Source of the DNA: Halomicronema sp. CCY15110
GTDB lineage: Bacteria; Cyanobacteriota; Cyanobacteriia; Phormidesmidales; Phormidesmidaceae
Direction: 5' to 3'
NCBI RefSeq assembly: GCF_016888165.1
Contig: NZ_JACSWC010000261.1
Coordinates: 1-52,158 of the forward strand
DNA length: 52,158 nt
The position numbers and the translations under genes were made by a program. Under the pieces are notes generated by a model. That model made no database searches and was not told the DNA's origin. It saw only the letters and a list, made by a program, of their open reading frames with translations. The number at the start of each line of letters is the position of its first letter. Within the stretch, counting starts at the first letter, position 1. Of this stretch, positions 12,496-24,365 are shown piece by piece.

Positions 12496-12936
12496 TCAGT
12501 TACCTGACGGGGCTTCAAATCCAGACAGCTGCGCCAGTTCTTCCAGCGAGCGGGTACCGGGATACAGTTCGCCCTCGATCTCCCAAGTGGGATACCCCTG
12601 GATTTCTTTGGTTTGGCACAGTTCCGGCTGCGCATTTTCGCCCTCGGGGTCGCATTCCACATAGGGCACTTCGTCAACGGCATCACCGAATAATGCCTTC
12701 TGATCTTGACAGTGAGGACACCAAAAGGCTCCGTACATGGTGGCCTCTTGGGCCGTCAGATGACTGGCCAGGCGGGCTTCATAGGGCGCATCAGCCGCCA
12801 ACTCTGTACTGCCGCCGCTGCTCTCAGCAGTCGTCGGAGAACAACTGCTGAGAGCTAGCCCTAATACGGCCAAGCAGCCCGTCAAAGATAATAAAGCCGC
12901 ACGATATTTTCCGGCAGGACGGTGGATATGGGTCAT
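12496..12936 (-). CDS. Thioredoxin-like lipoprotein resembling the VKOR thioredoxin domain
   Basis: A 146-aa exported thiol oxidoreductase. It has a signal peptide ending in a lipobox (LSSC, Cys32), so it should be lipid-anchored outside the cytoplasmic membrane. A thioredoxin fold follows, with active site FWCPHC (Cys73, Cys76), the cis-proline in GYPTW (Pro116) and two further cysteines (95 and 107). The YVECDPEGEN, PTWEI and LEELAQLSGF segments match the thioredoxin domain fused to vitamin K epoxide reductase (VKOR) in cyanobacteria, but here no VKOR membrane domain is encoded. It probably exchanges disulfides with a separate VKOR. A perfect 12-bp inverted repeat (12820-12855) lies across the lipobox codons. 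It leads the unit with the metal sensor. Confidence 0.87.
   Translation of the reverse strand: MTHIHRPAGKYRAALLSLTGCLAVLGLALSSCSPTTAESSGGSTELAADAPYEARLASHLTAQEATMYGAFWCPHCQDQKALFGDAVDEVPYVECDPEGENAQPELCQTKEIQGYPTWEIEGELYPGTRSLEELAQLSGFEAPSGN
12820..12855. repeat. Perfect 12-bp inverted repeat inside the lipoprotein gene
   Basis: GCTCTCAGCAGT (12820-12831) and ACTGCTGAGAGC (12844-12855) are perfect complements around a 12-base loop. They cover roughly codons 28-39, across and just after the lipobox, so the hairpin would form early in the mRNA. Confidence 0.7.
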
Positions 12937-13398
12937 AACAACAAAGAGTAACCAGTGAACAACATCAAATCAGGGATATGAGGTCAAAGTGACCTGAGGA
13001 CTATGCAGTCTGTAACGACCTTGATCAAAGCATTCATCCTACTTCTTCTTCGCGCCCCCAGCCCCCCTACGGAAAACCGCTCTGTGTCTACATTCCTCAG
13101 CCCCTTCTCCCAGTTTTGGGAGGAGGGGGCCGAACAAGTCCTTTTCTGAGCTTTGGGAGAGGAATTTAGGGTGAGGGCGAACCTGTGGCTAGACAAATCG
13201 AGTCTGTAATGACCTTGACCAAGTCTTGCTGTACGCTGACCAATGCCGTCCCAAGATTCGGCAATCCCGGCTTGGCAGGCGACTAACGGGTTCATTATCG
13301 TAGCTAGTTACTATGAGACAAGACAGTCAACATACTAGCTTTCGCAGCGGGTTCTGCGGCAAAGCTTTAGGCTTAATTCAACACCTTCGGAGAGAGTA
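12937..13398. other. 460-bp divergent intergenic region with a degenerate dispersed repeat
   Basis: No gene is evident. A 22-bp direct repeat occurs at 13007-13028 and 13201-13222 (20 of 22 bases identical). Between the copies lies a C-rich then G-rich block (about 13058-13180) with CCTTCTCCCAGTTTTGGGAGG and GGGAGAGGAATTTAGGGTGAGGG; the same style of text is scattered through many filamentous cyanobacterial genomes. The AT-rich segment around 13295-13320 is the likely htrA promoter area, and GGAGAG just before 13399 is its ribosome-binding site. Confidence 0.55.
13007..13222. repeat. 22-bp direct repeat pair (13007-13028 and 13201-13222)
   Basis: Both copies read AGTCTGTAA(C/T)GACCTTGA(T/C)CAA, differing at two positions. 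They flank a region of degenerate C-rich/G-rich repeat text, as duplicated target or recombination remnants might. Confidence 0.6.
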
Positions 13399-21883: not shown

Positions 21884-23425
21884 ATGTCTATCCCGTTCAT
21901 CCTAGAAGTTGTTCTCGGCTTAGTCTTCATCTACTTTGCCCTTAGCCTCTTGGCGAGTGAAATACAGGAAATTATTGGCACGCTTTTGCAATGGCGGGCA
22001 GAGCATTTGAAGCGGTCAATTGAAGTATTGATTGCGGGTAATGACCCCACCAGTAAAGCCGCGGCTGAAGCCTTTGCCGATCGCCTGTATGACACGCCGC
22101 TGGTGCGCAGTCTCAATCAAGAAGCCACCGGCCCGATCGCCCACTTCTTTCGCCTCATCAATCAAGCCGCTGGCCGACTTTATCGACTGGTCACCCGTAC
22201 CCGCAATGTGTTTGGGAATAAAACGAGCGGCCCTTCATACATTCCCGCAAAAACCTTTTCCCAAGCCCTGCTCGATAATTTACAGATTGAAGATTTGCGC
22301 ACAGTGCTGCTGGAAAGTCGCTTAGGGCGATTTACGGAAGAGCAGTTGATGCTACCGCTAAATCGCATGGTCAACGACTTGCGGGCCAGCACCGCCAACG
22401 AGTTTTTGTTGAACGCCGAGTTTCGCACGTTAGAGGCATCGGTCAGTCAACTGGTTCATGATTTTCGGGAGAAGCGCACCACCCTATCGGAAACCATTGA
22501 CCGCTTGATTCTCCGGTTGGATGAATTTACCGTAGCGGCTCAGGTAGCGCTGCCGGACAATCACCACCTGACTGAGACATTTATGCGGCGGCTAGAGTTT
22601 CTCAAGCAAGCGTTAGCCAGCACCACGTTGGATAAAGCGGCCTTGTTGAAGCGGATTCAGCCTAGTCTGGCAGAGTTAGTGTCGGTGGTCGATCGCCAAA
22701 GCCCCGTTTACCAAGAGTTAAAAAGTCTGGCCGGTAAAGACGGCGGCCGAGTGCGAGCCATCTTTGAGCGGATCGACAACCACGGTATCCCGCAAAGTTT
22801 GCAATCGACCCTGCTGTCGTTAGCCGACAAGGCGGGCAGCTCATTAGCGGCCAAAGCTAGTGATACGGTGCTCAACACGATGCAGAATTTGGCTGATGAC
22901 TCAGTCAGCAACTTGAAAATTTATCTCTCTGACCTAGAGACTGATGTGAAGTCGTTGGGCCAAGAAGTTGAAAGCTGGTTTAATCGCGGCATGGATCGTT
23001 CCCAAGGCGTTTACAAACGCAATGCAAAAGCCGTGGCCTTGCTGATCGGGATCGCGATCGCGATCTCATTGAATGCTGATTCGCTCCATATTCTTGATCG
23101 ACTCTCGCGAGATCCCGCCATTCGCAGTGCGATTAATCAAGCGGCAGAAGAAATTGGCTCTGCGAATCCAGCAGCGATGGCTGAAATCGAAGCTCAAGTG
23201 GATGATGCTCTCAACCAGTTGCCGATTCCCATCGGCTATGGCGAGGCCGTGACCAGCAAACAGCAAGCTGCCCAGGCGAATTGGTTTATCCCCTTGGTGC
23301 CGCGACGAGTCGTTGGTTGGTTTATTACGGGCTTCGCCATTTCCATGGGATCTAGCTTTTGGTTCAATCTACTCAAGCGAATTGTGGACGTGAAGAATTC
23401 TGGCAAGCTGGATGACTCCGAGTAG
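21884..23425 (+). CDS. 513-aa membrane protein of unknown function
   Basis: I do not recognise a named domain. The product starts at the ATG giving MSIPFILEVVLGLVFIYFAL, a transmembrane helix that begins at once. It is followed by a conserved-looking SLLASEIQEIIGTLLQWRAEHLKR segment, as seen in a widespread uncharacterised bacterial family. Residues 60-380 form a long, soluble, largely helical region with heptad character. A transmembrane helix (about 388-405) and a final one (VVGWFITGFAISMGSSFWFNLL, about 475-500) close the protein. The likely layout is two or three anchors around a large helical domain. The longer upstream frame (from 21812) has no such features. It stands after cyAbrB but is separated from it by a terminator. 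Confidence 0.75.
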   Translation: MSIPFILEVVLGLVFIYFALSLLASEIQEIIGTLLQWRAEHLKRSIEVLIAGNDPTSKAAAEAFADRLYDTPLVRSLNQEATGPIAHFFRLINQAAGRLYRLVTRTRNVFGNKTSGPSYIPAKTFSQALLDNLQIEDLRTVLLESRLGRFTEEQLMLPLNRMVNDLRASTANEFLLNAEFRTLEASVSQLVHDFREKRTTLSETIDRLILRLDEFTVAAQVALPDNHHLTETFMRRLEFLKQALASTTLDKAALLKRIQPSLAELVSVVDRQSPVYQELKSLAGKDGGRVRAIFERIDNHGIPQSLQSTLLSLADKAGSSLAAKASDTVLNTMQNLADDSVSNLKIYLSDLETDVKSLGQEVESWFNRGMDRSQGVYKRNAKAVALLIGIAIAISLNADSLHILDRLSRDPAIRSAINQAAEEIGSANPAAMAEIEAQVDDALNQLPIPIGYGEAVTSKQQAAQANWFIPLVPRRVVGWFITGFAISMGSSFWFNLLKRIVDVKNSGKLDDSE

Positions 23426-23614
23426 GCCGGAGTGACCGCCGAACAACCGTCTCTCTTAATATATGCGGTGCTGCGATCGCATCGGTTCAGTCACGCGTCG
23501 ATGGGGTCACCCTGGCGCGATCGCAATCATCAGCCCCCCAGCCATCGAGGAACAGATCCCCCATAGAGCAATGACTAATCGGCCCACGGTTAAGGATTAC
23601 CAGGTGGTCAAAGG

Positions 23615-23628
23615 GTGAAAATATTCAC
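23615..23628. promoter_or_regulatory. Possible NtcA-type palindrome (GT-N10-AC)
   Basis: GTGAAAATATTCAC fits the relaxed GT-N10-AC form of the site for the nitrogen regulator NtcA, though not the canonical GTA-N8-TAC. The nearest -10-like box starts about 34 bases downstream, further than in standard activated promoters. It is of interest because a nitrogen-responsive riboswitch follows. Confidence 0.25.
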
Positions 23629-23643
23629 AATTTACAAAGTTAG

Positions 23644-23660
23644 CCCACAAAAGTTGTGGG
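23644..23660. promoter_or_regulatory. CCCACAA/TTGTGGG inverted repeat just upstream of the -10 region
   Basis: Perfect 7-bp arms with a 3-base loop end three bases before a TAGTAAT -10-like sequence. The position suits a repressor operator; the factor is unknown. Confidence 0.4.
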
Positions 23661-23690
23661 AATAGTAATAATAGAAATACATCAAAACTT

Positions 23691-23775
23691 CGTTCATCCT
23701 CATTGCCCTCACAGACTTTTGTTCTTTGTATCGATGACTGATGAGGACGGAAGTAGGGAATTTCCCGAAGGAACG
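23691..23775 (+). promoter_or_regulatory. glnA-type glutamine riboswitch
   Basis: The conserved core of the cyanobacterial glutamine aptamer (glnA RNA / Downstream-peptide group) is present: GACGGAAGTAGG (23746-23757) and CCCGAAGGAACGC (23764-23776). P1 is CGTTC (23691-23695) with GAACG (23771-23775). P2 is TCCTCAT (23697-23703) with ATGAGGA (23741-23747). P3 is the short GGG/CCC stem (23756-23758 with 23764-23766). The aptamer binds L-glutamine and usually turns expression on when glutamine is abundant. Here it precedes a 48-codon gene, as Downstream-peptide RNAs do, rather than glnA. The bases just after P1 (CGCCCCC, 23776-23782) can pair with the Shine-Dalgarno GGAGGCG (23803-23809), suggesting translational control. 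Confidence 0.92.
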
Positions 23776-23802
23776 CGCCCCCATTGATTAATCGCATTTT
23801 TT

Positions 23803-23807
23803 GGAGG
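23803..23807 (+). promoter_or_regulatory. Ribosome-binding site of the riboswitch-controlled peptide
   Basis: GGAGG lies seven bases before the ATG at 23815, which decides this start over the second ATG at 23818. It can pair with CGCCCCC at 23776-23782 (six of seven pairs). Confidence 0.75.
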
Positions 23808-23814
23808 CGGTACT

Positions 23815-23961
23815 ATGATGAGTACTTCATTGGTTCAAGGTTTAGAAATTGTCGCTATCGTTAGCGCGATGGCAGTTGTGGTCTCTCCTATTCTGTGCTG
23901 GATTTTGCCCGATCGCACCAGCGCACTAGAGGTTGAAACGCCTACCAGACAATTGGTTTAG
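23815..23961 (+). CDS. 48-aa membrane peptide under glutamine-riboswitch control
   Basis: A short gene that follows the riboswitch by 39 bases and has a strong ribosome-binding site. The peptide starts MMSTSLVQGLEIVAIV, has a single transmembrane helix (about residues 10-31, ending near CWIL) and a hydrophilic tail with PDRTSALEVE. It contains one Cys. It is not GifA or GifB-like (those glutamine synthetase inhibitors are basic and soluble) and does not match PsbX, PetN or Ycf12 by eye. Its expression should respond to glutamine, so a role in nitrogen transport or membrane nitrogen sensing is plausible, but inferred from the switch alone. A 34-bp palindrome about 100 bases downstream probably ends the transcript. 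Confidence 0.8.
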   Translation: MMSTSLVQGLEIVAIVSAMAVVVSPILCWILPDRTSALEVETPTRQLV

Positions 23962-24365
23962 CAGATGCCACGGCTGAATCATGTTCCGATCGATGGGCGT
24001 CAATAGTACGCCGTCAGCGATCGCCAGTGCATTGAGACCGTAGCTAAAAATTATCCCCTTTCACGCCAAAAGGCCAGTCCATGGACTGGCCTTTTGGCTT
24101 ATTAGCCGAACCTCAGCAGATGAGGTAAAAGGCAGAATAATGACAACAAATCGTCAAATCTAAGTGGCTCAACTCACGACTTTTCTGTAGTGTAATTGCC
24201 GAACTTCTGAGGTGGATTCCACGACAAAACCTGGATTGCGTTGTCCCAGAATGATGTCGCACCACTCCTTTTTACACACAAAAAATGTAAGCAATGGCCG
24301 TTAACCGTACTGCCGCTGCCCCCAACAAGCCGGCAGTTAGTGCGCCCAGTCGCACCAGCCGCTAA
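23962..24365. other. 400-bp gap between two small convergent genes
   Basis: Apart from the palindrome at 24065-24098 I see no firm feature. A 23-codon plus-strand frame (24294-24365) ends next to the 53-aa gene but has no clear ribosome-binding site. Confidence 0.45.
24065..24098. terminator. Perfect 34-bp palindrome, probable bidirectional terminator
   Basis: GCCAAAAGGCCAGTCCA is followed directly by its exact reverse complement, so the whole 34 bases are a perfect palindrome. The TTTT/AAAA blocks inside the arms give a terminator-like stem with a U-run on either strand. It ends the riboswitch-peptide transcript and could also stop transcripts from the convergent 53-aa gene. Confidence 0.75.

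Follow-up and report, generated by a model that had tools for sequence, protein, structure and literature searches.

As judged from its sequence and that of its relatives, the locus described here belongs to the glutamine riboswitch regulon, of which it is a conserved branch whose product is a membrane protein. Along the forward strand, the aptamer of a type 1 glutamine riboswitch is followed by the gene for a conserved microprotein with a single transmembrane (TM) helix, and this by a hairpin. The switch is already known, and the target class is new. We refer to the whole 52,158-nucleotide stretch of Halomicronema sp. CCY15110 that was analysed as the window; it is contig C181 of the source genome, G000, and L-, G- and C-numbers are our codes for loci, genomes and contigs. 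Relatives keep the same switch-peptide pair, and the locus therefore looks like a so far undescribed arm, at the membrane, of the response to nitrogen sufficiency.

Riboswitch aptamer and peptide gene at the locus

An Rfam covariance-model scan matched the type 1 glutamine riboswitch aptamer (RF01739) to positions 23689–23779 of the forward strand, covering the full model (1–53) at 54.2 bits and E 3.2e-9 against a gathering cut-off of 35, and this was the single Rfam match at gathering within the whole 52-kb window. P1 is formed by CGUUC (23691–23695) with GAACG (23771–23775), and a long-looped P2, the GGACGGAAGUAGGG core and P3 could also be seen. A preliminary description of this DNA had recognised a complete glnA-type aptamer and proposed the Rfam glnA model as a check, and the match over gathering bears this out. 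Its comparison with Downstream-peptide RNAs fared less well, since the RF01704 covariance model gave no row at E ≤ 10 in 23600–24150; by sequence, the riboswitch class at the locus is type 1 (glnA), not Downstream-peptide.

The end of the aptamer is separated by 35 nt from a 48-codon ORF on the same strand (23815–23961), whose product is MMSTSLVQGLEIVAIVSAMAVVVSPILCWILPDRTSALEVETPTRQLV. The peptide is predicted to form one hydrophobic helix: its highest 19-residue hydropathy is 2.55, and AlphaFold2, run with 6 sequences, returned one helix spanning residues 3–30 at a mean pLDDT of 74.3. Nine pairs of sequences were compared over the first 34 codons: six had dN/dS values of 0.03, 0.04, 0.06, 0.06, 0.07 and 0.10, and the remaining three gave 0.31, 0.35 (with two differences in total) and one saturated comparison. 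A P-L-W-L core is kept across the peptide family. We conclude from these sequence comparisons that the ORF is a real gene under purifying selection, so that the tiny gene with one TM helix proposed earlier stands as coding and conserved, its product having a single predicted TM helix; the ribosome-binding site assigned to it, GGAGGCG at 23803–23809, was also right.

The peptide had further been described as neither glnA nor a known glutamine synthetase (GS) inhibitor, in agreement with the absence of any Pfam or NCBIfam match to it up to E 1 and of DUF4278 (PF14105) from the matches of 18 peptide relatives. None of the chains in the PDB matched the peptide profile at E ≤ 10, and nothing convincing was found when Pfam, NCBIfam, PHROGs and PDB sequences were queried with the peptide, its relatives or the profile. 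Viral contigs scanned with two short patterns encoded no relative of the peptide. Ycf12/Psb30, which we considered for the 48-aa peptide on what we take to be a P-x8-R likeness, was rejected: the single PF05969 match of the genome (E ≤ 0.001) lies on C117, not in the window.

Recurrence of the switch-peptide pairing within the glutamine riboswitch regulon

Searched as a single sequence, the peptide gave matches at E ≤ 0.1 in 33 of 59 genomes, G000 included. With a profile built for the family (A1), 141 of 388 genomes matched at E ≤ 0.1, the best matches reaching E 1e-23, and 40 places matched at E ≤ 1e-12. At 29 of these 40 places, RF01739 scored over its cut-off directly upstream on the same strand. 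Of the others, G276 fell just short (34.4 bits against 35), three (G011, G009 and G007) had a riboswitch core recognisable by pattern only, two (G023 and G314) had a damaged-looking riboswitch, and in five (G366, G322, G269, G381 and G255) no riboswitch was recognised. Another 11 units over the cut-off lie outside the 40 places (one in G025, a group of four and a group of six), bringing the switch-peptide units over the RF01739 cut-off to 40 in total.

The window's taxonomic family holds at least 218 RF01739 matches (E ≤ 0.001) in 58 genomes, at least 34 of which belong to TM-peptide units. Beyond that family, switch-bearing units were found in f3 (L088 and L089), f24 (L071 and L073) and f39 (L074). 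A wider profile (A3) matched 79 of 388 genomes and 37 of 159 genera at E ≤ 0.001, a patchy presence, and members of the peptide family, many of them without a riboswitch, span several cyanobacterial families; among the records in which a relative is encoded are Leptolyngbya sp. PCC 6406, Leptolyngbya sp. SIOISBB (a MAG) and Oscillatoria sp. CS-180. The relative in PCC 6406 is apparently the one at L012, where the core of the switch could be recognised by pattern only. A3 also found a class resembling GLWI...PAVLWVLPDR, without a riboswitch, that is present in G000 as well (C372). The last 20 family members fetched had no RF01739 match at E ≤ 0.1. Since some relatives have a decayed riboswitch or none, glutamine control is not essential to the peptide. 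Gene order in the window is kept at L075 and not at L076–L079, and no neighbour gene was common to all five loci read.

Several individual loci of the family are recorded here as separate observations. The GLWI-class member of G000 (L055; C372, 39051–39158) is a third TM-peptide paralogue, 36 aa long, with no riboswitch found. In the genus g12 relatives L081, L045, L052, L082, L083 and L086, the riboswitch is decayed or missing and the TM peptide is intact; an exact GTA-N8-TAC box is present in L045, L052 and L081. L153 (G215:C59) belongs only weakly to the family and has an apparently broken reading frame; it has no RF01739 match, and its upstream GCGCCTC...GGAGGC stretch may be a riboswitch remnant.

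In G000, RF01739 had seven matches: the window, C225 and five in front of DUF4278 ORFs. The C225 riboswitch (54.7 bits) directly precedes a paralogous 53-aa TM peptide, and the five non-TM targets all scored over the Pfam DUF4278 cut-off. The locus had been described as a self-contained module; it is instead one member of a genome-wide glutamine riboswitch regulon that includes these five ORFs. Three of the five DUF4278 units are tandem switch-ORF repeats on C360. In these repeats (L005–L007, with switches at 12605–12672, 12908–12975 and 13202–13269), complete riboswitches, each with a 56-aa DUF4278 ORF, lie head to tail, and the later two have no GTA-N8-TAC box in front.

RF01739 matches occurred in at least 231 of 388 genomes. 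We hand-picked 40 switches outside the peptide family among the best-scoring RF01739 matches listed, including two same-genome pairs (G083 and G213), a choice that leans to strong matches. A YRG motif of DUF4278 type was present in the first ORF behind 31 of them and absent from nine, and the TM-peptide profiles scored none of the 40 targets. Five of the switches (L104, L111, L115, L121 and L124) directly precede short Arg/Gln-rich ORFs without YRG, which we take to resemble IF7. One target, L108 (G083:C77, switch 181149–181212), is an ORF of 76 aa in which a YRG N-terminus is combined with a TM stretch (hydropathy 2.01) at the C-terminal end. Other uncharacterised ORFs adjoin the riboswitches of L118, L129 and L110 (49–51 aa, KTYRVS..., and 89 aa).

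Candidate control elements of the unit

Directly 3' of P1 lies a candidate anti-Shine-Dalgarno strand, CGCCCCCA (23776–23783), that can pair with the Shine-Dalgarno (SD) strand UGGAGGCG (23802–23809) with one C.A mismatch; folding places the SD strand in the paired part of a predicted hairpin. Among TM units in which a 3' strand and a GAGG could be recognised (which leaves out G213b, with no GAGG), the six bases after P1 could pair with the SD hexamer at five or more positions in 38 of 45 (29 of them perfectly), against 4.5 expected from linker shuffles, an expectation that, like those for promoter boxes and hairpins below, is calculated for unrelated sequences and overstates independence, the counted units being kin to one another. 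For the switches outside the family, pairing with the SD was seen in looser register in all 38 scorable leaders of the 40 (13.0 expected), L112 and L119 being left out because no ATG/SD was found. In L133 and L135, both from G213, CACCUC/GAGGUG replaces CGCCUC/GAGGCG, a change on both sides of the pairing.

Folding-based measures were less telling. The SD was unpaired at 0.138 in the units, compared with 0.222 after shuffling, and 11 of 45 units stood out; this control is weak because shuffling preserves the C-rich linkers, and since the thermodynamic shuffle had little power we used positional complementarity. The whole leader of the window folded no better than its shuffles (z −0.65). Blocking the first C after P1 in the model left the SD of the window unchanged (0.20 to 0.20) and raised the mean from 0.14 to 0.18, with G002, G003 and G009 opening clearly; stacking or kinetics would have to contribute to switching besides the blocking of this base.

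At the promoter position, we found a GTA-N10-TAC block, GTAATAATAGAAATAC (23665–23680, forward strand), which is a diverged form of the NtcA-type GTA-N8-TAC box of the relatives. The block is identical in G001 and lies at the place of the relatives' conserved box; the exact GTA-N8-TAC is absent from this position in the window, where only the N10 form occurs. Of 43 related units, 20 have an exact box in the 60 nt before P1 (0.77 expected; G030b, with a short upstream region, was left out), and in 19 of these 20 it lies at −20 to −34. G000 itself has an exact box at −25 to −31 in the promoter-proximal gif-type units L001, L003 and L006 and in the C225 TM unit. Of 49 family members without a detected riboswitch, 16 have a box no more than 250 nt away (1.5 expected). 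We take NtcA to be the binder of this box. The distribution of boxes and riboswitches among the units suggests that some lineages have both controls and others only one. A sigma-70 scan of 23420–24200 gave no match; of the promoter-like region earlier assigned to the unit, what stands is the block at a conserved position, with its box diverged.

A 15-bp palindromic hairpin lies ~105 nt after the stop codon (24065–24098, forward strand; −29.2 kcal/mol, z −7.3), and no second copy of its 24-base core exists in the genome when up to 3 mismatches are allowed. In 34 of 51 units, the 200 nt that follow the stop contain a stem of at least 12 pairs (4.2 expected; G008, with a short downstream region, and units with x and y names were left out); these hairpins lie at a similar position and have other sequences (in G005 and G004, for example, within longer stretches). 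The strength of the hairpin and the similarly placed hairpins of the relatives make it likely, not proven, that it is a terminator. The palindromic terminator of the preliminary description thus survives as a strong, recurrent hairpin, though one that fails a consensus terminator scan because it has no T tract.

Proposed role of the peptide and its relation to known systems

The reading that we favour, and to which we give even chances, is that of a monocistronic nitrogen-sufficiency gene, in which a glutamine ON switch would control a membrane microprotein that damps nitrogen uptake or its energy supply. In the excerpted text of PMC6316151 and PMC11288750, glutamine raises expression through type 1 switches, and gifB of Synechocystis is under a glutamine ON switch; in the solved aptamer, according to section 2.3 of PMC11477058, glutamine causes G23 to pair with C60 at the foot of P1. 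If the C directly after P1 corresponds to C60, the same C would be the first base of the SD-hiding helix. In the absence of glutamine, the bases after P1 (CGCC...) would sequester the SD (GGAGGCG) by pairing, so that translation is blocked. Once bound, glutamine would bring a G of the junction to the C at the base of P1 (the G23-C60 linchpin), and the SD, if this C is indeed the first base of the sequestering helix, would open and allow the peptide to be made. In many relatives, NtcA may additionally repress the promoter under nitrogen shortage; in the window, where the box has diverged, the riboswitch is probably the main control. By extension from gifB, the peptide is most likely a membrane microprotein induced by nitrogen excess, which would be made alongside homologues of the GS-inactivating factors. 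By analogy with these homologues, a feedback product under the same regulation would most naturally be read as a brake on nitrogen uptake at the membrane, and the peptide is plausibly such a brake. The least certain step is the last, in which the membrane-seated peptide would damp a membrane protein of nitrogen uptake or of its energy supply.

Many cyanobacterial complexes carry single-TM subunits of 30–50 aa, and the peptide could instead serve as an accessory subunit in a membrane complex of photosynthesis or respiration, tuned in amount to nitrogen status, rather than a transport regulator. The spread of family members, many without a riboswitch, over several cyanobacterial families is more like that of a structural part; against this, the search of PDB chains (E up to 10) was empty, there was no convincing Pfam match, the only Ycf12 (PF05969) match in the genome is at another place, and presence in 79 of 388 genomes at E ≤ 0.001 is patchy. 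We consider such a subunit unlikely. A role as partner of the DUF4278/gif proteins on the side of the membrane, where the peptide might for example tether glutamine synthetase or its inactivators or keep them in position, seems rather improbable: the peptide shares its switch class with the five DUF4278 ORFs of the genome, and L108 joins a YRG N-terminus to a C-terminal TM stretch, but the peptide profiles score 0 of 40 outside-family targets, which leaves no sequence link, and RF01739 occurs in at least 231 of 388 genomes while the wide peptide family is found in 79.

Two further explanations concern whether the peptide has a role of this kind at all. A toxin from a type I toxin-antitoxin pair would likewise be short and hydrophobic with a single helix, but a metabolite riboswitch, NtcA-type boxes and a conserved P-L-W-L core speak against it, the search for an antitoxin RNA having covered Rfam; we regard a toxin as very improbable. 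Chance can put short ORFs behind structured leaders, in which case the conserved element would be the leader RNA alone, as a small RNA or a relic. This explanation is nearly refuted by conservation at the codon level (six of the nine pairs have dN/dS of 0.03–0.10, and profile matches reach E 1e-23), and the ORF is kept where the riboswitch is decayed or missing. The nitrogen-sufficiency reading may extend to the family as a whole. More tentatively, its cyanobacterial members of ~36–53 aa, some under a glutamine ON switch, an NtcA-type box or both, could form a second, membrane arm of the regulon, with single-helix product-feedback brakes on nitrogen uptake or its energy supply acting at the membrane in parallel to the soluble GS-inactivating factors.

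According to the relevant part of PMC6316151, glutamine aptamers are mainly associated with DUF4278 (GS-inactivating-factor) genes, and the literature excerpts searched, a scope outside which Klahn 2018 fell, contained no description of a TM peptide behind a type 1 glutamine riboswitch. The earlier claim of an undescribed system accordingly appears to hold for the pairing, which recurs in 40 units, and not for the riboswitch class, which is known. With a recurrent membrane-microprotein target, glutamine feedback would reach beyond enzyme activity to the membrane. The gene is small and testable, with one ORF and one leader, and the family, for which we found no Pfam or NCBIfam model, offers natural variants with switch and NtcA box, switch only or box only.

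Norf4 of Synechocystis, as portrayed in the excerpted text of PMC5126843, is a 31-aa membrane microprotein with a predicted TM region and a nitrogen-responsive transcript, and it resembles the locus peptide in being a tiny cyanobacterial protein with such a region. Kinship was rejected: its sequence, read from two genomes with the exact published primer site (L163/L164), has no P-L-W-L core and scored 1.9 bits against A3 and −0.6 against A1. The Downstream-peptide (type 2) system, RF01704, is like the locus in having a glutamine-class leader followed by a short ORF; the available portions of PMC2864571 and PMC6316151 describe that leader as glutamine-binding, and PMC6316151 ties the type 2 riboswitch to DUF4278 small proteins of marine picocyanobacteria. 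Unlike type 2 leaders, 23600–24150 has no match to RF01704 itself at E up to 10. The closest known systems are the gifB/DUF4278 type 1 units, which share the RF01739 aptamer family and the SD-pairing strand directly after P1, and which have a promoter box at the same place, diverged in the window; the gifA and gifB products carry DUF4278, whereas the product of the locus is a single-TM microprotein without a DUF4278 match.
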